NCBI GenBank assembly: GCA_023664305.1
Contig: JAMPFT010000026.1
Span: 1-43,060, forward strand
Direction of reading: 5' to 3'
Length of the DNA stretch: 43,060 nucleotides
From: a bacterium
Lineage (GTDB): Bacteria; Bacillota; Clostridia; Lachnospirales; Lachnospiraceae
Shown here piece after piece: positions 18,342-40,429 of this stretch; the stretch's first letter is position 1, and the number at the start of each line of letters is the position of its first letter. Below the pieces are notes generated by a model that saw only the letters and a list, made by a program, of their open reading frames with translations, did no database searches and was not told the origin of the DNA. The position numbers were made by a program, and so were the translations under genes.

Positions 18342-19694
18342 TTATTTCAAAAGATCTGCATACGCCGCCGTCTCTTCCGACATTGCCGTTTTTTTCTGCA
18401 AATCAATTTGGCTGTTAATCATTTCTTCCTGCCCCATCACCTTATGCAGGAAAGCGGCCATAGCTTCATAATTGTCAAATATGTGCTCTTTGGCAATGAA
18501 TGTCCTGTTATGAAGCGTCTGATTAAATCCGAGAATCAGATGATTATGTAAAAACGCCTGCTTGACCGCGGATACGATTTCCGCCTCATGGTTGATATCC
18601 AGATAGTAATCGCAGGTATCAAACAGCTTGTCTATCGCCTCGGTGCGCGCTCCCGGATACAGCGTTACATTCTGATACTGTGACAGGCTCATCAGCTTAG
18701 ACGACATCTCCGTGACGGCCGCAATATGAAAATTCATCTGCGGAAGCGCCTTGATCAGCTCTTCGCACTTTTCAATCCTGTCGGAATTTGTACAGATCAG
18801 GGCCTCATTTCGGAAGGTATTCTGCCTGCTGTAGGCATAGGCGAATCCAAGCGGCTTTAACACCTGATCGGACGCGCCGAGCTCAATCAGCTTCTCGTAG
18901 CTTTCCTTTTTCTGCACAAAGATCCTTTTTACGCGTTTTGCCCGTCCGCCAAGGATCATCTGCATATTGCCGGGTATATCGTTTCTTGCGCCCTCCTGCC
19001 AGAACAGTATGTCTCCCTGCCGGTCGGCAGGCATTCTCTCGGACACAAACAGCGGTGTAGACAGGGAATTAAAGAAAATTCTGCTTCTCATCGCCCCCTG
19101 CTCTTTTAAAAACAGCAGGATAAGGTCCACCTTGCTTTTGAACACATAAACCTTGCCGTCCCTGTTCAGGATAATATCATGTGTCACAAAGTTTTCCAGA
19201 ACCGTCTCCCGGCCTTCCGCATCGAAGTACGTCTTGCAGAAGCGCTTTCCGTCCTTACTGAAAAAGGTTCTGGCATACAGCGCGCCGTACCGGTTATAGT
19301 GGTCGCTGGATCTGACGGTTCCCTTTTCATCCAGCCAGTCTACAACGCGCACCAGCCTCTTATGCTTTGGCTCCGCGTAAAAAATGCGCCCCCGCTCGCG
19401 ATGCAGATCCTGCACCTTCCCGCTGGAATTGTTACCGCTGATCTCCCAGTAATCCGGGACGTTAATCTGATTAAAATACCGCGCTTTCCCCGGTACTTTT
19501 CCGCCTTTTTGAAAATCACCGCAAAAATACTGCCAGACCGAAATGACGTCCTCCGGGAAAAAACCGTCGTCCTCGATCACAATTACCGGTCCCTTGAACC
19601 CGGCCCTTCGAAAAGACCGGTGAAGCATCTCGCTGTCTTCTCCGTAGTTATCCAACAGAAGAACCGTGTCTGTCAGCTCACTATGTTTTTCCAT
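18342..19694 (-). CDS. gtfB: Accessory Sec glycosylation chaperone/subunit GtfB
   Basis: This 450-residue protein is the GtfB partner of the SRR-protein O-GlcNAc transferase. The N-terminus (DTVLLLDNYGEDSEMLHRSF, then FFPEDVISVWQYFCGD) has the GtfB pattern, and the protein is about the usual length. GtfB has a GT-B fold without catalysis; it binds the acceptor Ser/Thr-rich region and stabilises GtfA. The later part (VTEMSSKLMSLSQYQNVTLY, YYLDINHEAEIVSAVKQAF) is the second Rossmann-like half. The gene overlaps gtfA by 22 bases, as expected for a tight complex. Order after secA2 and gtfA is that of the streptococcal loci. Confidence 0.92.
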   Translation of the reverse strand: MEKHSELTDTVLLLDNYGEDSEMLHRSFRRAGFKGPVIVIEDDGFFPEDVISVWQYFCGDFQKGGKVPGKARYFNQINVPDYWEISGNNSSGKVQDLHRERGRIFYAEPKHKRLVRVVDWLDEKGTVRSSDHYNRYGALYARTFFSKDGKRFCKTYFDAEGRETVLENFVTHDIILNRDGKVYVFKSKVDLILLFLKEQGAMRSRIFFNSLSTPLFVSERMPADRQGDILFWQEGARNDIPGNMQMILGGRAKRVKRIFVQKKESYEKLIELGASDQVLKPLGFAYAYSRQNTFRNEALICTNSDRIEKCEELIKALPQMNFHIAAVTEMSSKLMSLSQYQNVTLYPGARTEAIDKLFDTCDYYLDINHEAEIVSAVKQAFLHNHLILGFNQTLHNRTFIAKEHIFDNYEAMAAFLHKVMGQEEMINSQIDLQKKTAMSEETAAYADLLK

Positions 19695-21163
19695 CTAAGC
19701 TCCACCTCCTTCGTAAGAAAGCCTTTCGCCTTTTCGTAAGAATGTTCGTGGAAGCTGTCAAGATCAGCCTCCGTAAACAGACGGATCAGGCGTTTTGTCA
19801 ACTCCTCGATTTTCTGTTTTTGCGTCGTGTTCTCATCTACCGGAATCAAATACCCGTTTTTCCCCTCGTCTATAAAAGTCGGGTTCCCGTATCTTACGTT
19901 GAAGCCGATGATCGGAAGACCGCCTCCGATCGCCTCCATAAGGGTCAGTCCGAACCCTTCGCTCATGGATCCCGACAGATATAACTCGTAATCCTGATAA
20001 ACCTCTTTCAGATTCTGCTGGCCGCGGAGAACAATATAGCTTTCCGCACCCCGCTTCTGAATCAGCTCCCGAAGCTTCTGTTCCTCGCCGCCTTTTCCGT
20101 AGATATCCAGCGTAAGCTGCGGAACTGTTTCCCGCGCCTTTACAACGGCCTCGACAATCCAGTCGATATGCTTCTCCGTCGCCAGTCTGGAAGCCGTCAG
20201 AATCGAATAGGGCTTCCGGTTGATGGTCGGATACTTCAGCTCGTCCAGACTGCCCACGGGAATCGTATAGACGGTCGGCTCTACACCCTTATACTTCAGG
20301 AACTGCTCCCGCAGCAGCCTGTTCTGCTCATCGGTGGCCGTGACATAAAAGTCAACGTGCTTATGCATGGAAAAGGAATACTCATAATAATTATTCCACA
20401 AAATGTTGTCCGCGTCTGTGCTTCCTTCGCTGAAATGATCCGCGTGAATGACAATTCCCACCCGGGCGTCTCCCGCGTTCTGCAGGATAGCCTGTCCGAT
20501 TCCGGTCGTGCGGTCGATCAGCACAATGTCGTCTTTTGTCAGCTTCAGACACGACACCATATATCCTACAAATTCCTCCTTGGAGCAAAGAAGCTTATCC
20601 GGGAACTGATACATCACCTTCCCGTCGTCGTTGATTTCCTCGTAGGCCACCGTGCCGTCTTCGTTATAATACCTGCGCAGATACATATGCGCCTTGCCGT
20701 CAAGCGGCGCAAAATATTCCGTGAAAAGTCTGCCGTAGGTAAAATAATCCTTTCGGATCAGATAGCCTCCCGAGACAATCTCCACCCTGTGAATCCGCTC
20801 CGACTGTTCGTCCACAAAATAGATTGTATCATAATTGTTGTTCCCGGAAAAGACTAATTTTGCAGTCTTTCCGTTTCTTGTATAAGTATACTCTTCCGTG
20901 GGAAGCGTCTTTTTCAGATCGTCAAGGGTATAGGAGACCGGCGCAATCTTATAGTCCGTGAAAAACTGATACAGCCAGATAACCTCCGTATCCAGAAAAC
21001 CGATATTTTTCGTCATATGCTCGATATTATCCGCGGCGATCATGTCCGTGAATACAAACCTGGCGTCAGCTCCGATATTTCGGAGCATAACCGCCCGATA
21101 GCTCTGCGCATACTCTACTCCGCTGGAAGCCCAGCCTATTCCCAGATTAAAATTATAAATCAT
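19673..21163 (-). CDS. gtfA: Accessory Sec glycosyltransferase GtfA (O-GlcNAc transferase for SRR adhesins)
   Basis: This 496-residue GT4-type enzyme would transfer GlcNAc from UDP-GlcNAc to Ser/Thr of the SRR adhesins in the cytoplasm. The N-terminus MIYNFNLGIGWASSGVEYAQ is close to that typical of GtfA. The family's donor-site region is visible as ILTASRLATEKHIDWIVEA, and later GSMSEGFGLTLMEAIGGGLP contains the conserved EGFGLTLMEA with the GT4 glutamates. An upstream extension of 22 codons (GTG at 21229, next to the secA2 stop) is possible. The ATG at 21163 is preferred because a run of six G's lies six bases upstream and it matches the family start. No further adhesin-specific glycosyltransferases occur in the window. 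Confidence 0.93.
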   Translation of the reverse strand: MIYNFNLGIGWASSGVEYAQSYRAVMLRNIGADARFVFTDMIAADNIEHMTKNIGFLDTEVIWLYQFFTDYKIAPVSYTLDDLKKTLPTEEYTYTRNGKTAKLVFSGNNNYDTIYFVDEQSERIHRVEIVSGGYLIRKDYFTYGRLFTEYFAPLDGKAHMYLRRYYNEDGTVAYEEINDDGKVMYQFPDKLLCSKEEFVGYMVSCLKLTKDDIVLIDRTTGIGQAILQNAGDARVGIVIHADHFSEGSTDADNILWNNYYEYSFSMHKHVDFYVTATDEQNRLLREQFLKYKGVEPTVYTIPVGSLDELKYPTINRKPYSILTASRLATEKHIDWIVEAVVKARETVPQLTLDIYGKGGEEQKLRELIQKRGAESYIVLRGQQNLKEVYQDYELYLSGSMSEGFGLTLMEAIGGGLPIIGFNVRYGNPTFIDEGKNGYLIPVDENTTQKQKIEELTKRLIRLFTEADLDSFHEHSYEKAKGFLTKEVELRWKNIVS

Positions 21164-21225
21164 TCCAATCCCCCCTGTCCGCTTTGGCGGACGCTTTTTC
21201 GACAGTTTTTTATCGGTTTCAGACA

Positions 21226-23556
21226 TCACGGGAACAAAATATACATCTCTCCCGTCTTGCTGTATGCCCTTTCTCCCAGAAATATATTTCTCACGATCTG
21301 CTGCTTAATGATGCTTTCCATGCGGAGGAAGGATTCATGCGCCTCCACATGATATTCGAACACGGGATTTCTCTGAGCCGTAGCCCGGCCGCTGACGACA
21401 TACTGCAGCTGCTGCAGATAGTCCACCTGCTCGATCCAGGCCTCGTCGATCGCGTGCAGCGAACACAGACGGATATATTCCTGCAGCTCCTCTCTGGAGG
21501 AAAACTCCTTTACCTTATTTTTCCACGCCGTATTTACATAAGACAGCAGCACTTTTTCCAGCGTCTTTTTCCGGACCTTTTCAAAATTTAGATGCAGGAA
21601 CCGGTTATCCAGATTATAGGATATATTGTTCAACACATACCGCGTGATATCTCCCAGGGCAAAACGGCGCTTTGTTTTCAGGAACGCATGTACATTTTCA
21701 TAGGTCAGCTGCCGCACCAGCTCAAGCTCCAGACTTCCGCCGTCCAGCAGCCTGTTTCTGACCTCGTACATCATCACTCTCTGCCGCTTCATCACCTTGT
21801 CGTAGTCAACCGAGCTCTTCCTCTGCGCGACCGCCTGCTCCTCCTGGATCCTCTGCGTCCCGTTGATCAGCCGCTTCAGCCTCCGCTTCGAGATCCGCCG
21901 ATCCTTCTCAACATACTTTTCCAGAATTTTCTCCCCGATGGCGGAAAGGGAATCGTCCTCCAGAGAGACAAAAAACTGGCTGCTGCCCGGATCCCCCTGA
22001 CGACCCGCCCGGCCCCTCGCCTGACGCTCCAGACGGATATTTGCCATCCGCCCGATACCGATTACCGCGAGCCCGCCCAGCTCCTTTACTCCCGGTCCCA
22101 GCCGGATATCCGTCCCCCGTCCCGCCATACCTGTGGATACGGTGACCGTGTCCTTCTGTCCGGCCTCTTTGATAATCTGCGCCTCCCAGTAGGCATTGTT
22201 GGCGTTCAGCACGCTGTGCGCCACCTGACTTTCAATCAACAGACGGGAAATCCGCTCCGTGTCGGCAATGGTAGAGGTTACGATCAGCACCGGCTGCCCG
22301 GTCTCATGGCACTTCAGCACCTCCTCAACGGCCGCCTCGCACTGTTGCTCCGCGTTTTTAAAGAATAAGTCCTTCCTGTCCTCCCTCAGGAGAGGCCTGT
22401 TCGGCGGAATGACCACCACCCTTTTTTTGTAAACCTTATACAGCTCTTTTCTCGCGTCGGCGATGGTGCCGCTCATTCCCGCCAGATGCGGAAACAGCAT
22501 AAACAGATTTTGATAGGTGATGGAGGCAACCGACCTTGTCTCCTGCGTAAGCTTCATCTTCTCCTTTGCCTCGATGGCCTGATGAATACCGCCCCGCAGC
22601 TTCATGCCCGTGAGAACGCGTCCCGTGCCGTTATCCAAAAGCGACACCTCTCCCTTTTCGGTGACGACGTAATTCTTTCCCCTCTCCATGGTGATATGCG
22701 CCTTCATGGCAAGGGTCACATGCCGGTTCAGTTCAAAATTATCCGCCGCATAAAATTTTTCTATGCCAAAGTACCGCTCCGCATAGGCCACCCCTTCATC
22801 CGTAAGCCATACGCTGCCTTCCTCTTCTATGTAATCCCGCTCCGGCTGCAGCGTCGTCACAAAAAAATCCGTCATCCCGTACAGATTCGACTGCACCCGG
22901 GGAGCCCCCGCTATCACCAGCGGCATCGTCGCCGCGTCCATCAGCACCATATCCGCCTCGTCGATGATAACGTAATAAAACTCCCTCATAAAGCGGCCTG
23001 CCGCGCTGGATACAAGGTTATTCAGCAGATAATCGAAGCCCAGCGTCGAATGCGTCGTATAGACGATATCCGCATTGTAAACCTCGCGCTTTTCATCCTC
23101 CTTCATCGGTTCGTCCCGGTCTGAGCCCACGCCCGCCCGCACCGTCATCCCCAAAAACTCGTAAACGGGCCCCATCTCCTCCGCGTCCCGGGCCGCCAGA
23201 TAGCCGTTGGCCGTGACCAGCATCGTGCTTTTCCCCGTCAGCGCGTTCAGATAAAGCGGCATCGTCGCCGTCAGCGTCTTCCCCTCCCCGGTATTCATTT
23301 CCGCCAGATAGCAGTAATGCAGCGCAATGGCTCCCAGAATCTGGCAGTCGTAAGGCTCCTTGCCCAAAATACGCCTGTCCGCCTCGCACACCACCGCATA
23401 CGCCTCGGGAAGGATACTCCGGGTGGATTCGCCCCGGGCAATCCGCTCCTTAAACTCCTCCGTTTTTGCGCTGAGCGCCTCATCGCTCAGCTCCCGCACG
23501 GCCGGCTGTTCCCTCTTCACTTTTTTTAAAATGTACTCAAGTCTTCTATTCGCCAT
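21226..23556 (-). CDS. secA2: Accessory Sec motor ATPase SecA2
   Basis: This 776-residue motor protein drives export of glycosylated SRR adhesins through SecY2. Walker A MNTGEGKT is at 87-94, with the DEAD-type Walker B IIDEAD at about 198-202. NBD2 motifs include STGMAGRGTDIRLGPGV and RLERQARGRAGRQGDPGSS. It is shorter than housekeeping SecA and lacks the C-terminal zinc-binding tail, as SecA2 proteins do. Its start overlaps the asp3 gene by 11 bases and its stop touches the extended gtfA frame, so the genes are translationally linked. The assignment as SecA2 rather than SecA comes from this length and from the neighbours. Confidence 0.95.
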   Translation of the reverse strand: MANRRLEYILKKVKREQPAVRELSDEALSAKTEEFKERIARGESTRSILPEAYAVVCEADRRILGKEPYDCQILGAIALHYCYLAEMNTGEGKTLTATMPLYLNALTGKSTMLVTANGYLAARDAEEMGPVYEFLGMTVRAGVGSDRDEPMKEDEKREVYNADIVYTTHSTLGFDYLLNNLVSSAAGRFMREFYYVIIDEADMVLMDAATMPLVIAGAPRVQSNLYGMTDFFVTTLQPERDYIEEEGSVWLTDEGVAYAERYFGIEKFYAADNFELNRHVTLAMKAHITMERGKNYVVTEKGEVSLLDNGTGRVLTGMKLRGGIHQAIEAKEKMKLTQETRSVASITYQNLFMLFPHLAGMSGTIADARKELYKVYKKRVVVIPPNRPLLREDRKDLFFKNAEQQCEAAVEEVLKCHETGQPVLIVTSTIADTERISRLLIESQVAHSVLNANNAYWEAQIIKEAGQKDTVTVSTGMAGRGTDIRLGPGVKELGGLAVIGIGRMANIRLERQARGRAGRQGDPGSSQFFVSLEDDSLSAIGEKILEKYVEKDRRISKRRLKRLINGTQRIQEEQAVAQRKSSVDYDKVMKRQRVMMYEVRNRLLDGGSLELELVRQLTYENVHAFLKTKRRFALGDITRYVLNNISYNLDNRFLHLNFEKVRKKTLEKVLLSYVNTAWKNKVKEFSSREELQEYIRLCSLHAIDEAWIEQVDYLQQLQYVVSGRATAQRNPVFEYHVEAHESFLRMESIIKQQIVRNIFLGERAYSKTGEMYILFP

Positions 23557-23989
23557 CAGTCAATTCCGTTATCACAATCGAATGAAAATGAAAATGCGTC
23601 ACCCCGGCGTTGATCAGCTGAAGCTCATAGCTGAAGGTTTTCAAGGGGCACTGAAACTCCGCCTCGCCGTCCCGGATCACCATGCTTTCCGCCTCCACAT
23701 CGTAGCGGTCGAAAAAAATCAGCTTCAGGATCAATCCGTCCGAGGGCTCCGCGGACGCGTCCAGACTGATCCGATACCGGCCCTCCCCGTCTATCATGGG
23801 AAGGGACGGCTCGATCCGCAGACGCTGATAATTCACCTTGGAAAACCAACGTTTTATCACGGTTCCGGGAGACATCATTTCATTCTTAAATTCTATGTCG
23901 TCCTTTGCATGAAAGGAAACCTCCGACCCATACAGATAAGTCTCGCTTGCATACTCGTTCCAATAAACCTTCCACGATTCGCCTGTCAT
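23546..23989 (-). CDS. asp3: Accessory Sec protein Asp3
   Basis: This is a 147-residue beta-rich cytosolic protein with the Asp3 opening WKVYWNEYASETYLYGSEV, later LPMIDGEGRYRI and the closing GVTHFHFHSIVITE. In streptococci Asp3 forms a complex with Asp1 and Asp2 that binds the preprotein and SecA2 and is needed for export. It has a carbohydrate-binding-module-like fold. The start overlaps the asp2 stop (ATGA) and the end overlaps secA2, so the order asp1-asp2-asp3-secA2 is fully preserved. Confidence 0.9.
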   Translation of the reverse strand: MTGESWKVYWNEYASETYLYGSEVSFHAKDDIEFKNEMMSPGTVIKRWFSKVNYQRLRIEPSLPMIDGEGRYRISLDASAEPSDGLILKLIFFDRYDVEAESMVIRDGEAEFQCPLKTFSYELQLINAGVTHFHFHSIVITELTDGE

Positions 23990-25533
23990 CGCTGCAGCCT
24001 GCCCGCCTCGCTTTCCGCTTCCTCAAAATCCTTCTCTATAATCCTATTATACTGACTTACAAACCAACTTACAATACCCGGCGTATTGTCGTTGTGACGG
24101 CCGTGCAGGCCTTTTCCGTAAATCTGTACTCCGGCGTCCTTTAAGTGAAACTGCAGATTTTCATAGGCGTTTCCGTCGAGATCATCCTCTATCATATAAG
24201 AGATCGCAAACCTTGTCTCACTCCAGTCCGTGCGGTCAAACAGGCTCCAAAACCGATCGTTCAGCCGCTCAACCGCCTCCCGGTCCACGCTTCCGCATGT
24301 CTTGTGAAGAACGTCCACCCAGGAATGCGAGTCGTCGGGACATTTAATCCGTTTATTTTCCGCCACATCCCCGATACTGGCCAGGGGCTTGCCCAGAAGG
24401 ATGGTATTGGGTCGAATCCGGCAGCCGTAGTACAGCGCGCCGAAGGTTCCCATCGAAAGACCGGAGAGAATCACCTCCGAATTTTGAAATCCAAGCTTCC
24501 TCATGTGCTTCCGGATAATCTGTTCGACGGTGTTTTCGTACTCCTCCGAGCCGAGATAATAGCTTCCCCCCTCCAGCCTGCATTCCGCAATCAAAAGGAA
24601 GGGATGCTTCATTCTCCGCATCATGTAATACCCTTCGAAGCCTTCCTGCGTCTTATAACCGGAGAAATAGACATTTAAGGGCGGTTTCAGATTCCCCGGA
24701 TCAAAATAGTAAAAAACCTCTTCCCGATCCGAAGTGACCTTCCTTTTTCCGCCCGGCATAAAATGCCCCTTGCCGTTTCTCGAATGGCGGTCGTGCAGCG
24801 CCGTCACCGTAAGCCTCCCCTTACCGCTCGCCCTGAGGGAGGCAAACACATATACCGTCCGGTCGCTTTCATTCTGCACATAAACAATATGCTCCAGTTC
24901 CTTTTCGCCGAAAACCCGGGCATCCTGCACCTGAGGATCGGTGCCGTACCCGTACTGAAGCAGCGTGATCTCCAGCGATATCTCCACCGTATCGTCCTTT
25001 GCGTATTCCAGCCAAAATTCGATGGTCTGCTTTCCCTCCATCGGGATATTGTTTCGCCAGAAAACAATCTGCGTCAGCTCGCTGCCGTAATCCCCCTCCA
25101 AATCGACGCCCTCCAGGCCTCTCCAGGAAACTCTTCCGTCAAAGCCCTGCGCCACCGCCAGATTTTTCGGCAAGTATTTTTCCCCGTAGGAGCCTGAAAA
25201 ATAATCCGGCAGATCCACGGTAATAAGACGCTGCAGCTCCCCGGCGGAGATTCTCTTGCCCACCTTCCGGATAAAGAGCTGCTGCGTGAGCTCCCCGTTT
25301 CTCAGGGGGACGGCTTCCGTGAGAAACAGGCAGTAGGCCCTCAAAAAGCGGATCAGCCAGTCAAACTCCTCCTCCGTCACCTCGCGGTCCAGAATCGCCA
25401 CATCGAAGTCCTTTTCCGGCAATTCGGCAAAGTCCGGCTCATAATACCATTCCGCGCAATCCGATATCTCCATCGTCTTGCTGTAATCTTCACTTCCCAG
25501 CTGTAATACTCGTATTGTACTCAATGCGGGCAA
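23986..25533 (-). CDS. asp2: Accessory Sec protein Asp2 (putative GlcNAc O-acetyltransferase)
   Basis: This is a 515-residue protein with the Asp2 start motif IRVLQLGSEDYSK and a hydrolase-like catalytic region. The nucleophile elbow GLSMG (in LSGLSMGTFGALYYG) is near residue 357, and the late HGRHND block near 495 carries the candidate His. In streptococci Asp2 acetylates GlcNAc on the adhesin and is also needed for export. The start is a TTG at 25533, inside asp1, with GGAAAGGGG just upstream; a second in-frame TTG nine bases later is an alternative. It overlaps asp1 by 44 bases and asp3 by four. Confidence 0.92.
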   Translation of the reverse strand: MPALSTIRVLQLGSEDYSKTMEISDCAEWYYEPDFAELPEKDFDVAILDREVTEEEFDWLIRFLRAYCLFLTEAVPLRNGELTQQLFIRKVGKRISAGELQRLITVDLPDYFSGSYGEKYLPKNLAVAQGFDGRVSWRGLEGVDLEGDYGSELTQIVFWRNNIPMEGKQTIEFWLEYAKDDTVEISLEITLLQYGYGTDPQVQDARVFGEKELEHIVYVQNESDRTVYVFASLRASGKGRLTVTALHDRHSRNGKGHFMPGGKRKVTSDREEVFYYFDPGNLKPPLNVYFSGYKTQEGFEGYYMMRRMKHPFLLIAECRLEGGSYYLGSEEYENTVEQIIRKHMRKLGFQNSEVILSGLSMGTFGALYYGCRIRPNTILLGKPLASIGDVAENKRIKCPDDSHSWVDVLHKTCGSVDREAVERLNDRFWSLFDRTDWSETRFAISYMIEDDLDGNAYENLQFHLKDAGVQIYGKGLHGRHNDNTPGIVSWFVSQYNRIIEKDFEEAESEAGRLQR

Positions 25534-27106
25534 TAACCCCTTTCCATTGTTCGATCAGGTACTGTGTGGTATGCGACTTCCCCAGCTCATAAGACTGAAT
25601 CATCGCCTGATTCCAGTTTCGCAGGCTTTCCAGATAATAGGCCAGATCCTCTCCCAGACGGGACAGGTCCCCGTTGATCCTGCCGTTCTTTCCGGGCCGC
25701 ATGTACTGGGTGGCGCACCGCAGAATCTGCGGGATCCCCATGCTCACGCAGGATATCTGTAAAAACAGATCCGGCATATCCGCCAGATCCACCAAAAGCC
25801 TCTGCTCCCGCATACACTTATTGACCGACAGATCATCGACACACTGCTCCACGGTAAACAGGATCGGAATCTGATCCTCGTCGTCCAGCAAAAATTCAAA
25901 TTGATGCGTATTTCCTTTTCTCGCCCACTCCGGCGGATAACCGTTTCGCCGCAGCGCCTCGCTCACCTGCCTGAGCAGGATGTCCTCCCTCTCGAAGGAC
26001 GCGTTTCTGGTAAACAAATGCACTCTGGCGTCATGATTCTCTGTCAGATAGGCCGCCAGATACTTCACGGCCTCCTCCAGCACCCCCGCCGACAAATGAT
26101 CCACCGGAAACAGGATTTTCTGCACATGCATCTGCTGGCTGATTCCCGGATCGACCCGCGTGTCGTAGGGCGGAATATTGACCTTCTCCGTCTTTTTCAG
26201 GCTGTCCTGCCTCTCCAGAAGGTTTCGGTTTTCCTCGGAGTCCGTGACGATACAGTCGCCGTGGGAAAGCGCCCGCAGCGCAGAACCGTTCCCCTCCAGA
26301 GAAATTCTCCCGCCGAAAACGGAAAAAACCGTCCGCCTGTCCGCCAGCAGCCTGTCCAGCAGAGCCATGTGCCGTTCGTGCGCCGCCGCGCAGAAAATAT
26401 CCGTATCCTGCGTGGTTTTCAGATAAGACGCGAAAACCTCCCCGATTACCTCCTCCATGGAAGCATAGCTGCTCTTTTGAAACGGAATGCTTTCTTCCCC
26501 CTTGTCCGTGCGGATCAGATACTGATTGCTGCGCGGGTTCACGGCCACATGTCCGTCCGCAAAATGACAGAGCTTCCAGACCCCTTTGTCCGTCAGATAC
26601 TGCTCATAAAGCTTCTCCCCGTTTTCATAGATGGAGGTACAGGAGACAAACCCCCTGTCGTCGTAAATATTCTGGCGGTTGAGCAGACCGCCGCGGTATA
26701 AATCCACCTGTATGGGATTCCCGTATTCCCCGAACTCAATCTTCGCGTATCTCTCCCGATGAAGCATTGCGATGACCGAAAAAGGCGTATAGACAAACTC
26801 GATCTCCTTCGGCCAGTTCAGGTTGTGAAAGGAAAGCATCGCCTGCTTTTTCCGGCGCACCTCCTGTATCGCGTCGAACACGGACCAGTAAGGAGCCCGA
26901 AACGCGCTTTGCCGATGCAGGAAATGCCGGAAATTCGGCGCATACGACAAAAGCAGGATCTCATACTCGCAGATCGGATTCCTCTGGAACAGCTGAATCT
27001 GCTTCACCGTATCGTCCGTCTCCGTCACGGTGCGGCGCCTGTACCAAAGCTGCTCGCTTTCTTTCCATTCTCCTTTTAAATACCAGGCAGGTATAAAGTA
27101 AAACAT
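25490..27106 (-). CDS. asp1: Accessory Sec protein Asp1
   Basis: This 538-residue protein opens MFYFIPAWY, which is nearly invariant in Asp1 proteins. The body fits the GT-B-like fold known for Asp1 (two Rossmann-like halves; HRERYAKIEF and later VEQCVDDLSVNKCMREQRL). It is not expected to be catalytic; in streptococci it scaffolds Asp2 and Asp3 and helps engage the translocase. The ribosome site is weak (AAAGGAT 13 bases away), so translation may depend on the upstream secY2 message. The 57-base gap from secY2 has no terminator. Confidence 0.93.
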   Translation of the reverse strand: MFYFIPAWYLKGEWKESEQLWYRRRTVTETDDTVKQIQLFQRNPICEYEILLLSYAPNFRHFLHRQSAFRAPYWSVFDAIQEVRRKKQAMLSFHNLNWPKEIEFVYTPFSVIAMLHRERYAKIEFGEYGNPIQVDLYRGGLLNRQNIYDDRGFVSCTSIYENGEKLYEQYLTDKGVWKLCHFADGHVAVNPRSNQYLIRTDKGEESIPFQKSSYASMEEVIGEVFASYLKTTQDTDIFCAAAHERHMALLDRLLADRRTVFSVFGGRISLEGNGSALRALSHGDCIVTDSEENRNLLERQDSLKKTEKVNIPPYDTRVDPGISQQMHVQKILFPVDHLSAGVLEEAVKYLAAYLTENHDARVHLFTRNASFEREDILLRQVSEALRRNGYPPEWARKGNTHQFEFLLDDEDQIPILFTVEQCVDDLSVNKCMREQRLLVDLADMPDLFLQISCVSMGIPQILRCATQYMRPGKNGRINGDLSRLGEDLAYYLESLRNWNQAMIQSYELGKSHTTQYLIEQWKGVIARIEYNTSITAGK

Positions 27107-27163: not shown

Positions 27164-28363
27164 TCAGATAAAAAAGGAATAGGAATCAAATTTCCGGTAG
27201 GTTCTGATCTCCCGGCACAGCGGACAGACGATTCCCACCAGAATCATCGCCGTCGCAGGCAAAAGCGCCAGCTCCGACGAAATCTCGCCGTTCAGCGACA
27301 GCCCCAAAGACGTCCCCATCAACAGACAGAAAAGAAGGCCGCTGAAAGCGCTCAACAAAAAAAGCTTCCTTCTCAGATATCTCTTCGTCTTTCTCCCCGC
27401 ATAAACGCCGACAATACTGTCGCCGCCCTTTTGCAGCTGCTTTGCCATCTCGCCCGGCGAAAGCATAAGGAAGGAAAACGCAATATTCAAAAACAGGATA
27501 ACACACAGATAAACCCCCGCCCCCAACGTGTCCGTCAGGTTCAGCCTGTCGGAAATAAGCTGTAAGGTCTCATTCCCCCCTGAGAGGAACAAAAGCAGGC
27601 GTATGATTAACTGCGGTATCATAAAAAAGGCGACGGCAAACATAACCGGCATCACGCCGATGGGGTCAAGCTTATAGGCGATAAAGCTCTTGTCCGCAAA
27701 TTCATTGTGGATGGAAACCCGCTGCACCGGAATACGGATCAGGATGATTTCCATGGCCAGCATCACCGCCGCCATGACCAGACACAGAATTAGCGGGCTT
27801 TGAAGCTCCTCCCAGGTAAATTTCTGCACCGTGGAGACCAGATTATCCAGAATATTCACGAGGATAATCGGTATATGGCCGCCTATCCCGTACTCCTTAT
27901 TATAGCTCGCCATCTTAAAGATAACCAGGGCGCCAAGGATCATTTCCAGGACGGCAATCGCCCGCAACAAAACCGGATCAAAGCTCGACTCCTTAAAGAT
28001 CAGCCCGTCCGCCCGGGAAACCGAAAAGGACGCCGCAATGACAAGCATCAGGACCAGCGTGTACCGCTCCCTCTTCTGCGGCGAAAAACGGGCCTTAAAT
28101 TCGGCGCTCCTCAGCGCCGTAAAAATCCACATGATCAGCGTTGACGTAATATAAGGCATGATCCCCAGGGCAAACACCGTATACTGATACCGATCCCCGC
28201 TGATCATGGAAACCATGATATTCTGCGAGTTGAGTTCCTCTAACTCGTACGCCGCCGGATCCACATTATAAAGCAAGAGACTTCTTCCAACCATATAGAC
28301 TGCAAGAACCAGTACGCTGAAAAGAAGTCTCTTCCTCAATTCATGAGTTCTATTCTTTTTCAA
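27164..28363 (-). CDS. secY2: Accessory Sec channel SecY2
   Basis: This is a 399-residue integral membrane protein with about ten hydrophobic helices, as in SecY. It is somewhat shorter than housekeeping SecY. SecY-family hallmarks are visible: IMVSMISGDRYQYTVFALGIMPYITSTLI at residues 50-78, where ALGIMPYITSTLI resembles the SecY ALGIxPYIxxSI block, and GVMPVMFAVAFFMIPQ near residue 230. Translation starts at a TTG with AAGGG upstream. A stem-loop (28379-28415) lies between the upstream SRR adhesin gene and this start and may set the ratio of adhesin to translocase. It would form the pore used by SecA2. Confidence 0.93.
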   Translation of the reverse strand: MKKNRTHELRKRLLFSVLVLAVYMVGRSLLLYNVDPAAYELEELNSQNIMVSMISGDRYQYTVFALGIMPYITSTLIMWIFTALRSAEFKARFSPQKRERYTLVLMLVIAASFSVSRADGLIFKESSFDPVLLRAIAVLEMILGALVIFKMASYNKEYGIGGHIPIILVNILDNLVSTVQKFTWEELQSPLILCLVMAAVMLAMEIILIRIPVQRVSIHNEFADKSFIAYKLDPIGVMPVMFAVAFFMIPQLIIRLLLFLSGGNETLQLISDRLNLTDTLGAGVYLCVILFLNIAFSFLMLSPGEMAKQLQKGGDSIVGVYAGRKTKRYLRRKLFLLSAFSGLLFCLLMGTSLGLSLNGEISSELALLPATAMILVGIVCPLCREIRTYRKFDSYSFFI

Positions 28364-28378: not shown

Positions 28379-28415
28379 TGTGTATCTCTCCGGCATAACG
28401 CCGGAGAGATACGCA
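28379..28415 (-). promoter_or_regulatory. Stem-loop between the SRR1 adhesin and secY2
   Basis: A 13-bp perfect stem (GTATCTCTCCGGC / GCCGGAGAGATAC, loop of five bases) extends to 16 bp with one wobble. It lies 22 bases after the adhesin stop and 15 bases before the secY2 TTG start. It is not followed by a T-tract, so it is more likely a processing or attenuation/stability element than a terminator. An almost identical stem-loop follows the other SRR gene (34819-34857). Confidence 0.7.
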
Positions 28416-29019
28416 CTCATTACAACCTGTTAATTACTTATTCCTTTTTCCTGACATCGACGGTTTCCGCTTTCTCCTCACGGCTTCTGCGGTAAGCCTC
28501 TACGGCGCTGGCAACTGCTCCTATGACAGGGAGCCAAGACCACCAGACCCTCTCTCCTTCACCGCCCGGCGCGCTGACAAGAGCCGTCTCTTCTTCCCCG
28601 ATCTCAACCGTCTGACCCGTTTCTTCCGCGTCCTCCTCGTTGTCCTCGGGAATTACTGCAAGAGGCACATCCTCGTCCTCAATGTCGATCTCACCGCCCT
28701 CATCGGGTTCCGGCGTTACGGGATCAAGATCCTCCGCCTCATCGGCTGCAGGACCGGCTGCCGCTGCCGCCGCTGCATCTGCCGCCGCGGTGCTGGTGCT
28801 ATCCGACACGCTGGTGCTTGCCGAATCGCTCTCGCTGGTACTTGCGCTTGCCGATGCACTTGCGCTGTCGCTCGCGCTGGTGCTTACACTTGCGCTGTCA
28901 CTTGCCGCCGTGCTCGCTGCAGTACTTGCGGCCGTGCTTGCTGCGGTACTTGCCGCCGTGCTTGCACTGTCACTTGCGCTGGTGCTTGCCGATGCGCTTG
29001 CGCTGTTGCTCTCGCTGAT

Positions 29020-32000
29020 GGAGAGGCTTTCGCTGGTGGATACGCTCTCACTGGTGCTGATGCTCTCGCTCGTGGATACGCTTTCGCTGGTGCTTACGCT
29101 TTCACTCGTGGATACGCTCTCACTGGTGCTTACGCTCTCGCTGGTGCTTACGCTCTCGCTCGTGCTTACGCTTTCACTTGTGGATACGCTTTCGCTCGTG
29201 CTTACGCTCTCACTCGTGCTTACGCTTTCACTTGTGGATACGCTTTCGCTCGTGCTCACGCTCTCACTGGTGGATACGCTCTCGCTGGTGCTCACGCTCT
29301 CACTTGTCGATACGCTTTCGCTCGTGCTCACGCTCTCACTCGTGCTTACGCTCTCACTCGTGCTTACGCTTTCGCTCGTGCTCACGCTCTCACTCGTCGA
29401 TACGCTCTCGCTAGTGCTTACGCTCTCACTTGTCGATACGCTCTCGCTCGTGCTGACGCTTTCACTCGTGGATACGCTTTCACTTGTGCTTACACTCTCA
29501 CTTGTCGATACGCTCTCACTCGTGCTGACGCTCTCGCTGGTGGATACACTTTCGCTCGTCGATACACTTTCACTTGTGGATACGCTCTCACTCGTGCTGA
29601 CACTTTCGCTGGTGCTTACGCTCTCACTCGTGCTCACGCTTTCACTCGTCGATACGCTTTCGCTCGTGCTCACGCTCTCACTTGTGGATACACTCTCACT
29701 GGTCGATACACTTTCGCTCGTGCTCACGCTCTCACTGGTCGATACGCTCTCACTTGTGGATACGCTTTCGCTCGTCGATACGCTCTCACTGGTGGATACG
29801 CTCTCGCTGGTGCTTACGCTTTCACTCGTAGATACGCTCTCACTTGTGGATACGCTTTCACTTGTGGATACGCTCTCGCTGGTGCTGACACTTTCGCTCG
29901 TCGATACGCTCTCACTTGTGCTCACGCTCTCGCTCGTGCTGACGCTTTCGCTGGTGGATACGCTCTCACTCGTGCTGACGCTCTCACTGGTGGATACGCT
30001 TTCGCTCGTCGATACGCTCTCACTGGTGGATACGCTCTCGCTGGTGCTTACGCTTTCACTCGTCGATACGCTCTCACTTGTGGATACGCTTTCGCTCGTC
30101 GATACGCTCTCACTGGTGGATACGCTCTCGCTGGTGCTTACGCTTTCACTCGTAGATACGCTCTCACTTGTGGATACGCTTTCACTTGTGGATACGCTCT
30201 CGCTGGTGCTGACACTTTCGCTCGTCGATACGCTCTCACTTGTGCTCACGCTCTCGCTCGTGCTGACGCTTTCGCTGGTGGATACGCTCTCACTCGTGCT
30301 GACGCTCTCACTTGTGGATACGCTTTCGCTCGTGCTCACACTCTCACTGGTGCTGACGCTCTCGCTCGTGCTCACGCTTTCACTGGTGCTTACACTCTCA
30401 CTTGTCGATACGCTCTCGCTGGTGCTGACACTCTCGCTCGTGCTCACGCTTTCACTCGTCGATACGCTCTCGCTGGTGCTTACGCTTTCGCTCGTGCTCA
30501 CACTCTCACTGGTCGATACGCTCTCACTCGTGCTCACGCTCTCACTCGTCGATACGCTTTCGCTCGTGCTTACGCTTTCACTCGTAGATACGCTCTCACT
30601 CGTGCTCACACTCTCACTCGTAGATACGCTCTCACTCGTAGATACGCTCTCGCTCGTGCTCACACTCTCACTCGTAGATACGCTCTCACTCGTGCTCACA
30701 CTTTCACTTGTGCTTACGCTTTCACTGGTGGATATACTCTCACTCGTGCTTACACTCTCACTTGTCGATACGCTTTCACTGGTGCTTACGCTCTCACTTG
30801 TCGATACGCTTTCACTGGTGCTTACGCTCTCACTTGTCGATACGCTTTCGCTCGTGCTTACACTCTCACTCGTGCTCACGCTCTCGCTGGTGGATACGCT
30901 CTCACTCGTGCTTACGCTTTCACTCGTCGATACGCTCTCGCTCGTGCTCACGCTCTCACTGGTGCTGACGCTTTCACTCGTCGATACGCTCTCGCTCGTG
31001 GATACGCTCTCACTCGTGCTTACGCTTTCACTCGTCGATACGCTCTCGCTCGTGCTCACGCTCTCACTGGTGCTTACGCTTTCACTCGTCGATACGCTCT
31101 CGCTGGTGGATACGCTTTCGCTCGTGCTCACGCTCTCACTTGTGGATACGCTTTCGCTCGTGCTCACGCTTTCACTTGTGCTTACACTCTCACTCGTGGA
31201 TACGCTTTCACTTGTGCTGACGCTCTCACTCGTCGATACGCTCTCGCTCGTGCTTATGCTCTCACTGGTGGATACGCTCTCACTTGTGCTGACGCTCTCA
31301 CTGGTGGATACACTCTCACTCGTCGATACGCTTTCGCTGGTGGATACGCTCTCGCTGGTGCTGACGCTTTCACTCGTCGATACGCTCTCACTCGTGGATA
31401 CACTCTCACTCGTGCTCACGCTTTCACTCGTCGATACACTCTCACTCGTGCTCACGCTCTCGCTGGTGCTGACGCTCTCACTCGTGCTTACACTTTCGCT
31501 CGTGCTTACGCTTTCACTCGTAGATACGCTCTCGCTCGTGCTCACGCTCTCACTGGTGCTTACGCTTTCACTCGTCGATACGCTCTCGCTGGTGGATACG
31601 CTTTCGCTCGTGCTGACGCTCTCACTCGTGGATACACTCTCACTCGTGCTCACGCTTTCACTCGTCGATACACTCTCACTCGTGCTCACGCTCTCGCTGG
31701 TGCTGACGCTCTCACTCGTGCTTACACTTTCGCTCGTGCTTACGCTTTCACTCGTAGATACACTCTCACTCGTGCTCACGCTTTCACTCGTCGATACGCT
31801 CTCACTCGTGCTCACGCTCTCGCTGGTGCTGACGCTTTCACTTGTGCTTACGCTCTCACTCGTAGATACGCTTTCGCTCGTGCTCACACTCTCGCTGGTG
31901 CTGACGCTTTCACTTGTGCTTACGCTCTCACTCGTAGATACGCTTTCGCTCGTGCTCACACTCTCGCTGGTGCTAACGCTCTCGCTTGTGCTTACGCTTT

Positions 32001-32364
32001 CACTCGTCGATACGCTTTCGCTCGTGCTCACACTCTCGCTGGTGCTGACGCTTTCACTTGTGCTTACGCTCTCACTGGTGCTCACGCTTTCACTCGTCGA
32101 TACGCTCTCACTCGTGCTCACGCTTTCACTGGTGGATACACTCTCACTCGTGCTGACGCTTTCGCTTGTGCTTACGCTCTCACTCGTGCTCACGCTTTCA
32201 CTCGTCGATACGCTTTCGCTCGTGCTCACGCTTTCACTCGTCGATACGCTCTCGCTCGTGCTTACGCTCTCACTCGTGCTCACGCTTTCACTCGTCGATA
32301 CGCTTTCGCTCGTCGATACGCTTTCGCTCGTGCTTACGCTCTCACTCGTACTCAAGCTCTCGCT
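29020..32364 (-). repeat. About 185 tandem 18-bp units encoding SVSTSE (SRR1)
   Basis: The unit is AGC GTA AGC ACG AGC GAG with many synonymous variants, and only a few units read SISTSE. It covers about 3.3 kb of the adhesin gene. Larger segmental copies are visible: a block starting at 29821 recurs at 30145 (324-bp shift, 18 units), one at 31387 recurs at 31621 (234 bp, 13 units) and one at 31821 recurs at 31893 (72 bp, four units). This indicates growth and shrinkage by recombination while keeping frame. Confidence 0.9.
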
Positions 32365-34280
32365 CGTGCTTGCTTCCTCACTCGCCTTAATCGAGTTACT
32401 TGCACTTTCATAGGAAGTCGAATTGGAAGCAGCTGCTTCTTCGCTTGCCGAATTAAAGCTATCAGACGCGTTACTTGCATCGGTGCTCCTGCTTTCGCTT
32501 GCTTCCTTCGCAGCAGCTGCGCTCTCGCTTGCTGCCTTCGAATTAGACTCGCTTGCCTCTTTCGCCGCAGATGCACTGGCGCTGGCCGCCTCGGATGCTT
32601 CTGAAATAGACTGCGACTGGCGATCCAACTCGTCATGATACTTCTGCAGAGCTTCCTCCTGACTGGTTACTTTCTCACTGCCAGTTATCACTCTGTCGTA
32701 AGTGTACTTCGTCGTGGTTGCCTTCGGGGTATACGCTGTATCGTTCTGGATTTTAAAGGTATATTCTGCCGTATCAGAACCGTTTCTGTACAAGCCATAG
32801 TTACCATTAGCATCCGTTTTCAGTACATAGTTGCTACCAAGATTCCGATATGTCAACTCCCACGACGTAGGCTTGTCTTTGTACTGGAGTCTAAATTCTC
32901 CATCCTTAATTAAAAGTGTATAATTGCTATTGTTTGCATCCTCAAGCTTGTGCCACTCGCCGTTCTGATCCTGAACAACAACATAATTCCCGACACCTAT
33001 ACCAGTGGCATTACCTCCTGCTACGGTATACTTGTTGCCGCCAACCGACTTTTCTGCTGTACTTGTATTCTCGTTCGAATTATTCAGCAAATTGTCATTT
33101 CCATTATTTTTATTATAAGTCGAATAATACCCTTCCGACCCGTCTGCCTTTACGACAAACATCTCACGATGGTCCGCATCATCTTCCAAAATATAGGAAA
33201 TCGTTCCGTCCGGATTAATCTGCCTGTCCGGATTCGTGTATGTCGTACCGTTTACCGTGATAACAACGTTTGTACCGCCGTTTCCATCAGATTCGATTTT
33301 GTAGTCGGTGGTCGGCGCACCCTCAGTCGTAATTGGCTTCGGCTTCTCATCATGCTTATTCGTAATCGTTACTTCTGTGCCGCCCGTCACCTCATAGCTT
33401 ATCTCCGCCTTATTGACGTTTACCTTCCCGTCCTCTACGGAATACTGGTAAACCTCGGAAAGCTCTCTTCCTTCGGAATCCTTATAGTAAACCGTATAAT
33501 AGCCCTGCTGATCTTCAGTCGCTTCCGTCCAGTCCATTTTGACGACAGAATTTCCGTTGCTGGCCATCTGATACTGGATAATGCTCTCCGCCACAATTTG
33601 TGCTGCCGCGTTCTGGTCTGCTGCCGACGCGGAATTGGAGTGCAGCGTAGACAGCGAATTAAGAGCCGAGTCGTAAGTAGAAAGAGCCGACGCCGCCTCA
33701 CTTGTAACACCATCCGTCTGGTAGGTCTCGGAAGTATGCTTGTATTCACTTTCAGACAGACTGAACTCATCACTGGCAGAATTACTCTCAGCCGTCACAT
33801 CGCTGGCGCTGTCAGACGCGCTGGCCGACATGGACTCGGATGTACTTTCCACACCGCTCTGAATCGCCGACAGAGATTCGGATGTAGACAGGCTCTCGCT
33901 TGTAAAGGTGTTAGAAGCGTCTACCTCTTCCGTCGAGTTCACCTCTGACGTTGACTCTACATCGCTCCACGTCTGCTGCGGGGGAACATTCTCCTTAGAA
34001 GCCTCTTCCCCGTCTCCCTCGGTGTCTCCGTCTGTTCCCCCCTCGGGATTCTCTTCCCCGGAGGTTCCGTTTCCTTCCCCATTGTTCTCGTTCTCGTCTG
34101 CAGACTCTTCCTCTTCTTCCTCGGATTCTTCCTCCTGCTCTTCCTCGGTGGATTTCTCCTGCTGATCTGCCCCGGGCTGCTCATTCGTCTGCAGGGTGAT
34201 TTCCTCATCATCCAGCGAAGCGACATTGATTCCGCCGTCATTCTGGCCATTTGCCGCAACGGTCTTAGTAACGGGAGATG

Positions 34281-34289
34281 CCCCCCCCC
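34281..34289 (-). repeat. Nine-base poly-G (minus strand) homopolymer tract in SRR1
   Basis: The adhesin message reads ATG followed by a G run totalling nine G's, then CATCTC. The neighbouring gene SRR2 has GTG GGG GCA at the same place, a run of only five. A length of eight or five G's would keep the adhesin in frame; nine puts it out of frame. Homopolymer runs of this length slip readily during replication. Confidence 0.85.
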
Positions 34290-34525
34290 ATTTCCTCAAA
34301 ATCGACATCCAGCTCTCCATTCGCTTTGGATGTTTCCTCCAGCTCCGCCGCCGTTTTTAACGCATCTTCCAACGTGCTCTGCGATTCCAGCGTGTTTTCC
34401 AGCTCGGCCTCAGCAGCAAATACGACGTTAGCGTCAAGCGTAGCCGCGCCGAGAACCACACCGGCTGTACCGGCGGCTTTCAGAACCTTGTTTACTTTGC
34501 TCGTCTTTCGGTTTCTCTTGCTCAT

Positions 34526-34897
34526 ATTCCCTCCTATGATCTTTCTGATTTATTTCCCACCTGTGATTGTAAACGAATTAATCCGGCCATTCAGATTTCA
34601 TATGTACTTCATCGTACACGTCTTGCCTCAATAAGTCAATCTTTTTTCGCTCTGACCGATCTTTCCTTTCGCAATCCTTCGGTTTGAAAGGCCTTTTAAG
34701 CTCCCCTCCCCCTTTCACAAAGAGGCCCTAACTTACTCTCACATATAGAAAGAGCGTTTGAAAATGAAAAATGGCTCAAAAAAATAAAATTTTTTTTGAG
34801 TTTTTTTCACTCGCCTTCACGCGTATCTCTCCGGCATAACACCGGAGAGATACGCGTTCGTTATACTACTTATCAATTTTTCTTTTCGGGACTATGC
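34526..34897 (-). promoter_or_regulatory. Upstream region of SRR1, with conserved promoter/leader block
   Basis: This 372-base gap lies between the SRR2 stop and the SRR1 start. It holds an SRR2 3' stem-loop (34819-34857) and an A/T-only dyad with a long T run near 34775-34805. A block near 34640-34800 is closely matched upstream of SRR2 (38215-38330). The shared block contains CAAACGCTCTTTCTATATG, a CTCT/AGAG dyad and a leader with a run GGGGGAGGGG. The dyad may be an operator and TATATG a -10. No convincing -35 box was found. A good AGGAGG site precedes the ATG. Confidence 0.6.
34819..34857 (-). promoter_or_regulatory. Stem-loop downstream of the SRR2 adhesin
   Basis: A 16-bp perfect stem (ACGCGTATCTCTCCGG / CCGGAGAGATACGCGT) closes a seven-base loop. 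It follows the SRR2 stop by 40 bases. It matches the stem after SRR1 in 10 or more bases per arm. An A/T-only hairpin with a T run follows on the minus strand, so this one may act together with that as a terminator. Confidence 0.7.
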
Positions 34898-37800
34898 TTA
34901 TTCCCTTTTCCTGACATCGACGGTTTCCGCTTTCTCCTCCCGATTTCTGCGGTAACCCTCTACGGCGCTGGCAACTGCTCCTATGACAGGGATCCAGGAC
35001 CACCAGATCCTCTCTCCTGCACCGCCCGGCGCACTGACAAGAGCCGTCTCTTCTTCCCCGATGTCAACCGTCTGACCCGTTCCTGCCGTGTCATCCTCGC
35101 TTCCCTCGGGAACTACCGCAAGAGGTACATCCTCGTCCTCAATGTCGATCTCACCGCCCTCTTCGGGTTCAGGCGTTACGGGATCAAGGTCTTCCGCTTC
35201 ATCGGCTGCAGGACCTTCTGCATCTGCCGCTGCCGCGTCTGCTGCCGCGGTGCTGGTGCTATCCGACACGCTGGTGCTTGCCGAATTGCTCTCGCTGGTG
35301 CTTGCGCTTGCCGATGCACTTGCGCTGTCGCTCGCGCTGGTACTTGCGGATGCGCTTGCGCTGTCACTTGCACTGGTGCTTGCGGATGCGCTTGCGCTGT
35401 CACTTGCCGCTGTGCTCGCTGCGGTACTTGCCGCCGTACTTGCTGCTGTGCTCGCCGCGGTACTTGCACTGGTGCTTGCGGATGCACTTGCACTGTTACT
35501 TGCGCTGGTGCTTGCCGACGCGCTTGCGCTATTGCTTGCGGATACGCTTGCGCTGTTGCTCTCGCTGATGGCGAGGCTTTCGCTGGTGGCAAGGCTCTCG
35601 CTGGTGCTGACGCTTTCGCTGGTGGATACGCTTTCACTCGTGGATATGCTCTCACTTGTGCTTACGCTTTCGCTCGTCGATACACTCTCACTCGTGGATA
35701 TGCTCTCACTCGTGCTTACGCTCTCGCTCGTCGATATGCTCTCGCTCGTAGATACACTCTCACTCGTCGATACACTTTCGCTGGTGGATATGCTCTCACT
35801 CGTTGATACGCTTTCGCTCGTGCTTACGCTCTCACTGGTGCTGATACTTTCACTCGTCGATACGCTCTCGCTCGTGCTGATGCTTTCGCTGGTGGATACG
35901 CTCTCACTCGTCGATACGCTCTCACTCGTGCTGATGCTTTCGCTGGTGGATACGCTTTCACTCGTCGATACGCTCTCGCTGGTGCTTATACTTTCGCTCG
36001 TGCTTACGCTCTCACTGGTGGAAAGGCTCTCACTCGTGCTCAGGCTCTCGCTGGTAGCCTTATAATAGGATGTCGAATGGGACTCCGATGTTTTCAGGCT
36101 CTCACTGGTGTAGCTATTCGATGCCTCATACCCGGCATCGCTCAAGCTCTTGATATCACTCTGCGCTGCAGTTTCGCTGGTCTCAGCCGATCCCGAATTT
36201 GTCGTACTGGTGCTCTTCGCATCGATTGCACTGTCGCTGGCTGAGTTAGACGTTTCCTCTATCGCCTCTGATTTGCTCTCCAACTCACTGTGATAGTTCT
36301 GCAAAGCGTTGTCATGGCCTTCTACTGGATCACCCGGTTTGATATTCCTGTTGTAGGTATAGGTCGTTGTAGTTGCCTTAGGGGTGTAGCTTGCGTCTTC
36401 TCCAATCGTAAGCGTATAGGCCGGTGTATTCTTCCCGTTTTCGTACAAGCCATAATTGCCATTCGCATCGGTCTTTAATACATACCCACTACCAATCTTT
36501 TTATAATCACCTTTTCCATTCAGCTGAGAATAGAAATTCCCATCATCAGATATTACAAGTTGACGACCCGGCTCCGAATCCAATGTAAGCTTATGCCATG
36601 CACCATTTTCATCCTGAACAACAGCATACTTATAATTGGTTAAAAGCCAATGATCCGTTCCTCCTGCAACAGTATAGCTGTTGCCATTAATCTCATAAGT
36701 ACTTGTGCTTGTTTTCTCATCCGAATTATTCAGCAAGCTACTTGTCTTATTATACGTCGTATAATAGCCGTTCGATCCGTCTGCCTTTACGACAAACATC
36801 TCTCTCTCTTTGTCGGTATCTTTCAGAATATAAGAAATCGTCTCATCCGGATTAATCTGTCTGTCAGGATTCTTATATGTGTCATCGCCTACCTTAATCA
36901 CAACATCCGTATCGCCCTTTTCGTTGGTTGTGATTTCGTAGCTGACGGTCGGCGCTTTATCAAGGTTCTCGATCTTATCCGGCTCCTTGTCATGATCGTC
37001 CGTAATCGTTACGGTCGTGCCGCCCGATACCTGATATTCTATCTCCGCCTTATTGACGCTTACCTTCCCCGCCTCATCTACGGAGTACTGGTAAATCTCG
37101 GAAAGCTCTCTTCCCGTGGAATCCGTGTAGTAAACCGTACAATAGCCGGGCTGATCGCCTGTCGCATCCGTCCATTCTATTTTGTCGGTAGCGCTTCCGC
37201 TGCTGGCCATCTGATACCGGATAATGCTCTCCGCTACGGTTTTCTCTGCATCAGCCAGATTTTCTCCCGACGCGGAATTGGAATGCAGCTCGGACAGCGA
37301 ATGAAGAGCCGAGTCGTAAGTAGAAAGAGCCGACGCCGCCTCGCTTGTAACACCTTCCGTCTGGTAGGTCTCGGACATATGCTTGTATTCGCTCTCCGAT
37401 GTGCTGAGCACTTCACTGGTGGACTCGCTGGTGGACGCCACGTCCGACGCGCTTTCCGACGCGCTGCCCGACAGGGATTCCGACGTGCTCGCCACATTGC
37501 TCTGAAGCGCCGACAGGGATTCAGATGTCGCCATGCTCTCGCTTGTGAAGCTGTTGGACTCGGATACTGCTTCCGTGGAGTTTACCTCTGATGTAGACTG
37601 CACTGCACTCCAGCTGTTGCTCCAATTCGGCGAGTCGGCTTCCCCGTCCTTAGGAGCCTCGTTCCCGTCTCCCTCGGTGTCCCCGTTTGTTCCCTCTTCG
37701 GGATTCTCATTTCCTGCCCCTTCGGTTCCGTTTGTGTTATTGATCCCGTCTGCAGACTCTTCCTCTTCTTCCTCGGAATCTTCCTCCTGCTGATCTGCCG

Positions 37801-40179: not shown

Positions 40180-40429
40180 TTATTTTTCTCCGCAGCTTTC
40201 CAAAAACTTCCTCATGGCTCATTCGTTCAGCATTTTCCGCCGCAAGTCTGTCCGCTTTATCCAGCATAATTTCCACACTATTCGTCAACTTTGAATACTC
40301 CTCAAGACTTAATACCACCATTGCTCCATGCCCATTCTTAGTCAGATACACCGGTTCTCCGGCATTTACAATTTTCTCAATATCAGGAAACTTATTTCTC
40401 AAATCTGAGACAGGTCTGATCTGTAACAT
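40169..40429 (-). CDS. Phd/YefM-family antitoxin
   Basis: This 86-residue protein begins MLQIRPVSDLRNKFPDIEK, the DNA-binding Phd/YefM N-terminus, and includes EPVYLTKNGHGAMVVLSLEEY. It should neutralise the RelE/ParE toxin encoded downstream and repress the operon. A longer frame starts at 40453; the ATG at 40429 is preferred because AAGGAG lies ten bases upstream and the family starts there. A possible -10 (TACAAT) lies near 40490. Confidence 0.88.
   Translation of the reverse strand: MLQIRPVSDLRNKFPDIEKIVNAGEPVYLTKNGHGAMVVLSLEEYSKLTNSVEIMLDKADRLAAENAERMSHEEVFGKLRRKINAQ

Follow-up and report, generated by a model that had tools for sequence, protein, structure and literature searches.

A nine-G tract in the gene of a putative serine-rich repeat adhesin as a probable phase-variable switch in a Lachnospiraceae bacterium

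A split SRR gene beside an accessory Sec locus

The window, by which we mean the whole 43,060-nucleotide stretch of DNA analyzed here, carries two tandem genes for serine-rich repeat (SRR) proteins, SRR1 and SRR2, which are followed on the same strand by the genes of an accessory Sec system (Table 1). Upstream of the SRR genes, at 39850-40453, lies a gene pair that we take, judging by eye, to encode a Phd/YefM antitoxin and a RelE/ParE toxin. The same region encodes two YhgA-like proteins (38468-39448 and 41980-43059) that score just below the cutoff of PF04754, and 12-nt repeat arrays occur near the C-terminal ends of both.

Table 1. Features of the SRR locus and poly-G promoter-like sites elsewhere in the same genome
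Feature	Position	Strand	Basis or remark
SRR2, open tandem paralogue, 1,083 aa	34898..38149	-	ORF; five G's at the matching place, 37909-37913
Hairpin between SRR2 and SRR1, 16-nt arms fully complementary	34819..34857	-	
SRR1 promoter-like site, TTGACT, 17 nt, TACGAT	34611..34639	-	Consensus match only
Ribosome-binding-like AGGAGGG ahead of SRR1 start	34529..34535	-	Sequence
SRR1 start frame, signal-like N-terminus and linker, 86 codons, ending shortly past the tract	34265..34525	-	ORF
Tract of nine G's at which the SRR1 frame is lost	34281..34289	-	Sequence; nine C's on the + strand
SRR1 continuing frame, 1,960 codons: acidic linker, non-repeat domain, SRR repeats, C-terminal hydrophobic segment and charged tail	28438..34320	-	ORF
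SRR1 serine-rich repeat array, 18/36/54/90-nt units, about 1,120 codons	29008..32371	-	Repeat analysis
Similar hairpin between SRR1 and secY2, 16-nt arms 94% complementary	28379..28415	-	
secY2 (accessory Sec)	27164..28363	-	TIGR02920, E 5e-59, below curated cutoff
asp1, asp2, asp3	23546..27106	-	Profiles, all above cutoff
secA2	21226..23556	-	TIGR03714, 943 bits, above cutoff
gtfA glycosyltransferase and gtfB glycosylation chaperone	18342..21229	-	Profiles, both above cutoff
Own poly-G promoter-like sites (L043, L045, L050, L057)	C19:22427, C22:51097, C38:87, C41:70415		

The tract of nine G's lies about 80 codons into SRR1. The start frame reaches a stop at the fifth codon beyond the tract, and the continuing frame, which is +1 relative to it, extends without a stop across the repeats as far as the natural C-terminus; codon usage supports coding both before and after the tract, in frames one base apart. 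The first-pass annotation had described a nine-G tract, a gene out of frame by one base, and a neighbor, SRR2, that shows the correct frame around a run of five G's, and each of these observations was borne out. The rest of the frame is open as it had stated, and its figure of 2,028 residues for a gene with eight G's agrees with span arithmetic only. It had also taken the long open frame as a sign against decay; the openness is real, but it fits a recent or a miscounted break equally well. An internal start at 34320 is unlikely to be the true start of SRR1, as the nearest GGAGG is 15 nt upstream and the product would have no signal sequence. In the SRR1 region, matches to the promoter consensus number two on both strands, compared with 0.6 expected.

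Serine and threonine together make up a fraction of 0.66 of residues 656-1780 of the SRR1 continuing frame. Among the features by which SRR glycoproteins are recognized, the linked secA2/secY2/asp1-3/gtfA/gtfB genes are present, with only SecY2 below its curated cutoff, and so is a long serine-rich repeat domain (the array of SRR1), whereas the third, an LPXTG anchor motif, was found neither in the continuing frame of SRR1 nor in SRR2. A hydrophobic W-W-S-W-[IL]-P segment with a charged tail is conserved in SRR1 (28438-28560), SRR2 (34898-35020), and three related loci (L025, L026, and L027) and is perhaps another anchoring signal. By these features, SRR1 would function in the manner of accessory Sec-dependent SRR glycoproteins; the gene probably encodes a sticky surface protein, and we predict that this protein is glycosylated, exported, and adhesive. 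A profile search with the non-repeat domain against PDB chains returned nothing significant, the best match being a garlic-type agglutinin (E 0.088).

A scan of genome contigs returned five relatives of SecY2, which are 68-71% identical in the best segment. The nearest SecY2 records come from an uncultured Eisenbergiella, an uncultured Acetatifactor, an uncultured Lachnospiraceae bacterium, and two entries named "Clostridia bacterium." The sample names of these relatives point to the rabbit and mouse gut as the habitat, and we therefore regard the organism as belonging to a Lachnospiraceae genus of apparent gut commensals. Because there was no promoter-like site in 27900-28700, around the gap between SRR1 and secY2, an OFF state of SRR1 might reduce transcription from secY2 onward. 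The hairpins that follow SRR1 and SRR2 have no T run, and their exact core was confined to loci of this genome region among the 239 loci searched.

Evidence within the locus

Before the tract, SRR1 and SRR2 are 86% identical across 78 codons, and their C-termini resemble each other. Omega between the two genes is 0.28 before the tract, 0.44 after it, and 0.46 at the C-terminus; since it is below 1 in all three parts, the comparison suggests that, for much of the time since the two genes separated, both were maintained as proteins. The G9 run is by itself not rare on composition and proves little, because 23 of 100 dinucleotide shuffles of the window contained at least one such run, and we count this against switching. 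Contingency genes are marked by a simple repeat, in the gene or its promoter and long enough to slip, whose length decides the reading of an otherwise intact gene. In SRR1 the simple repeat is a G9 run, the longest run class in the genome, and its length decides whether the two frames are joined. A 21-base pattern built on the flank of the tract had no matches in viral contigs.

The interpretation that we consider probable is slipped-strand ON/OFF switching of SRR1, seen in the OFF state. Under this interpretation the G9 run would be a poly-G contingency tract early in a surface-protein gene whose product would depend on the neighboring accessory Sec system for glycosylation and export. Replication slippage would alter the number of G's; one frame would yield the whole protein, the other frames would lead to an early stop of translation, and the assembled sequence would represent the OFF state. 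The tract length would thus change within the population, reversibly. We count in favor of switching that the promoter-like site, the ribosome-binding-like site, both parts of the frame, and the C-terminus of SRR1 are all present, and likewise that omega is below 1 throughout.

The relatives of SRR1 itself count against switching. Comparisons within the genus drew on 138 genomes, one per species and our own included, of which six matched the SRR N-terminus. No G or C run of six or more was found in the parts read of five SRR relatives (L025, L026, G026, G124, and G153); these parts included the whole G026 gene (L027), 118 codons to a contig end (L062), L063, and 579 codons to the end of the locus (L064), with the relatives in G124 and G153 cut short and loci L065 and L066 left out by the motif filter. 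The same result counts in favor of SRR1 being a recently and irreversibly inactivated copy whose role has been taken over by SRR2, its open tandem paralogue, and pseudo-SRR genes split into adjacent ORFs are reported, for example, from several lactobacilli in excerpts of a review of SRR proteins (PMC6973325). We nevertheless consider such a fixed loss improbable: the break falls exactly within the G9 tract, the 1,960 codons beyond it have stayed open although 485 of them are a single substitution away from a stop, and homopolymer indels can in principle revert. It would be more surprising still if the shift were overcome during expression, through slippage of RNA polymerase along the G run or through a ribosomal frameshift, such that some full-length protein is made without a change in the DNA. 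Nine consecutive G's could serve as a substrate for slippage, but the continuing frame is +1 and so cannot be reached by the common -1 ribosomal slip, for which reason we rejected -1 frameshifting in SRR1 and regard bridging in general as very unlikely.

Long G runs in the genome

Slipped-strand switching of SRR1 draws most of its support from outside the window. Exact counts of G runs on both strands of the genome (G000) gave 308 runs of six, 27 of seven, 19 of eight, and 6 of nine, with none longer; overlapping matches among the runs of eight and nine were merged by hand. The ratio of successive counts is 0.09 between G6 and G7 and 0.70 between G7 and G8, a fall-off that is oddly slow for the long runs. 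Five genes are frame-broken at a run of at least seven G's: SRR1, an AraC-family regulator, and a membrane protein, all at G9, and two neighboring acyltransferases at G7. Four of these breaks have offset +1 and one has offset -1, and the three G9 breaks share a single offset, which we count against switching. The acyltransferase breaks are at C40:1106 (offset +1) and C40:2088 (offset -1; L136, Acyl_transf_3). In the first gene, the pieces before and after the run correspond to positions 3-181 and 210-319 of the Acyl_transf_3 profile, and the second gene matches the profile in its first piece only. Within 13 kb, the same contig has two further G8 runs inside genes (C40:5019 and C40:13689).

The surroundings of the runs were classified by length. 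Three of the six G9 runs are in the broken genes, two are in promoter-like spacers, and one is at the junction of a GntR and an ABC gene, beside a start codon; all six sit where a change in length could alter expression. The 19 G8 runs fall in clearly open genes (11), near gene ends (3; L042, L047, and L055, left out of the clearly open count), in promoter-like spacers (2), at a gene junction (1), and in noncoding sequence (2). A codon usage-based caller agrees for 5 of the 11 open genes (L040, L041, L046, L051, and L060). The other six (L038, L044, L049, L054, L058, and L059) were judged by their open frame, and for these the caller gave a frame switch in L038, a strand change in L049, and one or both sides noncoding in the rest. 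Classes were assigned to 18 of the 27 G7 runs, namely, 15 in genes that were open according to codon usage, 2 in the broken acyltransferases, and 1 at a gene junction. The presence of 11 clear G8 genes and 15 called G7 genes that are open counts against switching. Several of the G8 genes look like envelope genes, two types (SpaA-like and solute binding) by Pfam hit and others by signal, lipoprotein, or membrane features recognized by eye.

In G000, a G run also sits next to the start codon of the downstream gene at three apparent gene junctions, L053 (G9), L056 (G8), and L131 (G7), and junctions of the same type are present at L206 and L219 (both G9) in a second genome of the genus, G050. The length of such a run could change translation initiation.

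It is unlikely, in our assessment, that the length of the SRR1 tract was simply miscounted in the assembly and that the gene is open in the organism. Homopolymer G counts are error-prone, a deposited G-tract length differed from the culture majority according to excerpts of a study of Bifidobacterium breve (PMC9187656), and the common offset of the three G9 gene breaks also counts in favor of miscounting. However, errors should grow with run length, yet this genome has two genes that are broken at runs of seven, one with each offset, and 15 G7 genes and 11 G8 genes that are open. The acyltransferase breaks rule out a simple length threshold by which genes break only at G9, and they weaken the miscount reading more than they weaken switching. 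Of nine A runs with a length of nine or more, the only one flanked on each side by sequence called coding in the same frame is open, which also argues against miscounting.

Tract lengths among relatives

Single-G differences in tract length are present at other loci of the genus. The AraC gene, which in our genome is broken at G9 with the ligand domain before the run and the helix-turn-helix (HTH) domain after it, has G8 at the same place in G050 and is open there for 359 codons; the two genes are 92% identical over the piece compared. The motif used for this comparison located the region in 2 of 30 fetched loci, our own and G050, and the tract was read in these two. In G050, two open frames pass through a G9 run (L209 and L224), so that a run of nine G's is not as such a sign of error, and this too stands against a miscount in SRR1.

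The broken membrane-protein gene (L048), which has no Pfam hit, belongs to a family with relatives in 86 of the 138 genomes. Thirty loci of this family were scanned with their outer 900 bases excluded, and four had a G run of at least seven: our own genome (G9), G019 (G7), G129 (G9), and G099 (G8). The four runs (L048, L144, L145, and L149) are in four different places, and all four genes are frame-broken at the run, with both offsets represented. In each of the remaining 26 loci, the frame is open for at least 511 codons. That genes of this family are broken in other genomes at runs of seven, eight, and nine G's, with offsets of both kinds, speaks against miscounting, and such convergence appears hard to obtain from counting errors.

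BLAST-matched tracts of G000 and G050 were equal in length in seven of eight pairs, in a comparison restricted to runs of at least eight; owing to this restriction we dropped it as a test of conservation. Taken at face value, these tracts are less variable than expected of hypermutable tracts, and we count this against switching.

A poly-G promoter class

Four G runs of our genome (Table 1) are flanked by a TTGAC[A/T] box on one side and, immediately adjacent, by a TANNNT box on the other. They represent a promoter-like class in which the spacer between the -35 and -10 boxes ends in a run of 7 to 12 G's that directly adjoins the -10 box. The pattern was found at 155 sites in 46 of the 138 genomes, our own included, compared with 1 site for the control, which was the same pattern read backwards (counts summed by hand). 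Spacers were 15 to 20 nt long in the loci measured, and many of the first genes downstream look like genes for exported proteins, lipoproteins, or zinc-ribbon proteins (34 loci, judged by eye). Length differences of one G occur here as well: in G026, two near-identical copies of a promoter and lipoprotein-like gene differ by one G (G7 and G8), and among near-identical promoters of G159 and G035 the run is either G8 or G7.

One such promoter is upstream of an SRR gene. In G153, a GGDEF gene is preceded at a distance of 35 nt by a G9 promoter and is followed by a gene for a BTAD-domain regulator and then by an SRR gene that is cut by the contig end. Gene order is apparently the same in two other loci, L025 and L026, with genes labeled by eye, and scanning both loci yielded no TTGAC box combined with a G run of at least four and a -10-like box. 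We count the G9 promoter upstream of the SRR operon in G153 in favor of switching.

Slipped-strand ON/OFF switching, which the first-pass annotation had proposed, is the best-supported reading of SRR1, owing to the five genes broken at G runs with both offsets, the orthologous pair with G8 and G9, the gene family with four independent runs, and the genus-wide poly-G promoters; we regard the proposal as partly supported overall. The chances appear evenly balanced that this genus of commensal gut Lachnospiraceae runs a multilocus poly-G phase variation system like that of Campylobacter, which would include a promoter class with 7 to 12 G's abutting the -10 box and in which SRR adhesins would be controlled in two ways, by a coding tract in SRR1 and by a poly-G promoter upstream of the SRR operon in G153. 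If this interpretation of the tract holds, the genus would provide a case with many loci among apparent commensals of the Lachnospiraceae, and it would be worth reexamining, for the presence of tracts, SRR genes that have been listed elsewhere as split pseudogenes.

Comparison with known systems

Among the matches listed from the open-license PMC literature, no title or opening of an abstract described poly-G switching in Lachnospiraceae or of an SRR adhesin. Campylobacter and Helicobacter are Gram-negative bacteria with demonstrated poly-G/C switching. As in their contingency genes, several G runs are present here in envelope or surface genes, both inside genes and in promoters; unlike theirs, most tracts here are seven to nine long.

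SRR1 resembles Fap1, GspB, and the SRR protein of Lactobacillus reuteri in its SRR repeats and in its secA2/secY2/asp1-3/gtfAB locus but differs from them in that SRR1 and SRR2 have no LPXTG motif; the term "phase variation" does not occur in the main text of the review of these systems (PMC6973325). The C8 tract of mga in group A Streptococcus is a reversible switch, demonstrated in culture and in mice according to the abstract of the report (PMC10330708). It likewise is a C/G run, of eight, in a gene of a Gram-positive bacterium, whereas mga is a regulator gene and SRR1 is not.

The closest known system to SRR1 is that of the pilus G tracts of B. breve UCC2003, in which, as described in excerpts of the study, a slippage switch of sortase-dependent pilus clusters is established (PMC9187656). 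Slippage was measured there by deep sequencing, in culture and in mice, whereas the case for SRR1 is built from sequence, and the study warns about the G-tract lengths found in databases. The B. breve tracts are in pilus genes of a sortase cluster in an actinobacterium and are slightly longer as annotated (G11 and G10). In both systems, however, a Gram-positive gut commensal carries a G tract inside a gene that is annotated as two ORFs, and in both the gene belongs to a structure for adhesion at the cell surface, a role that for SRR1 is predicted.
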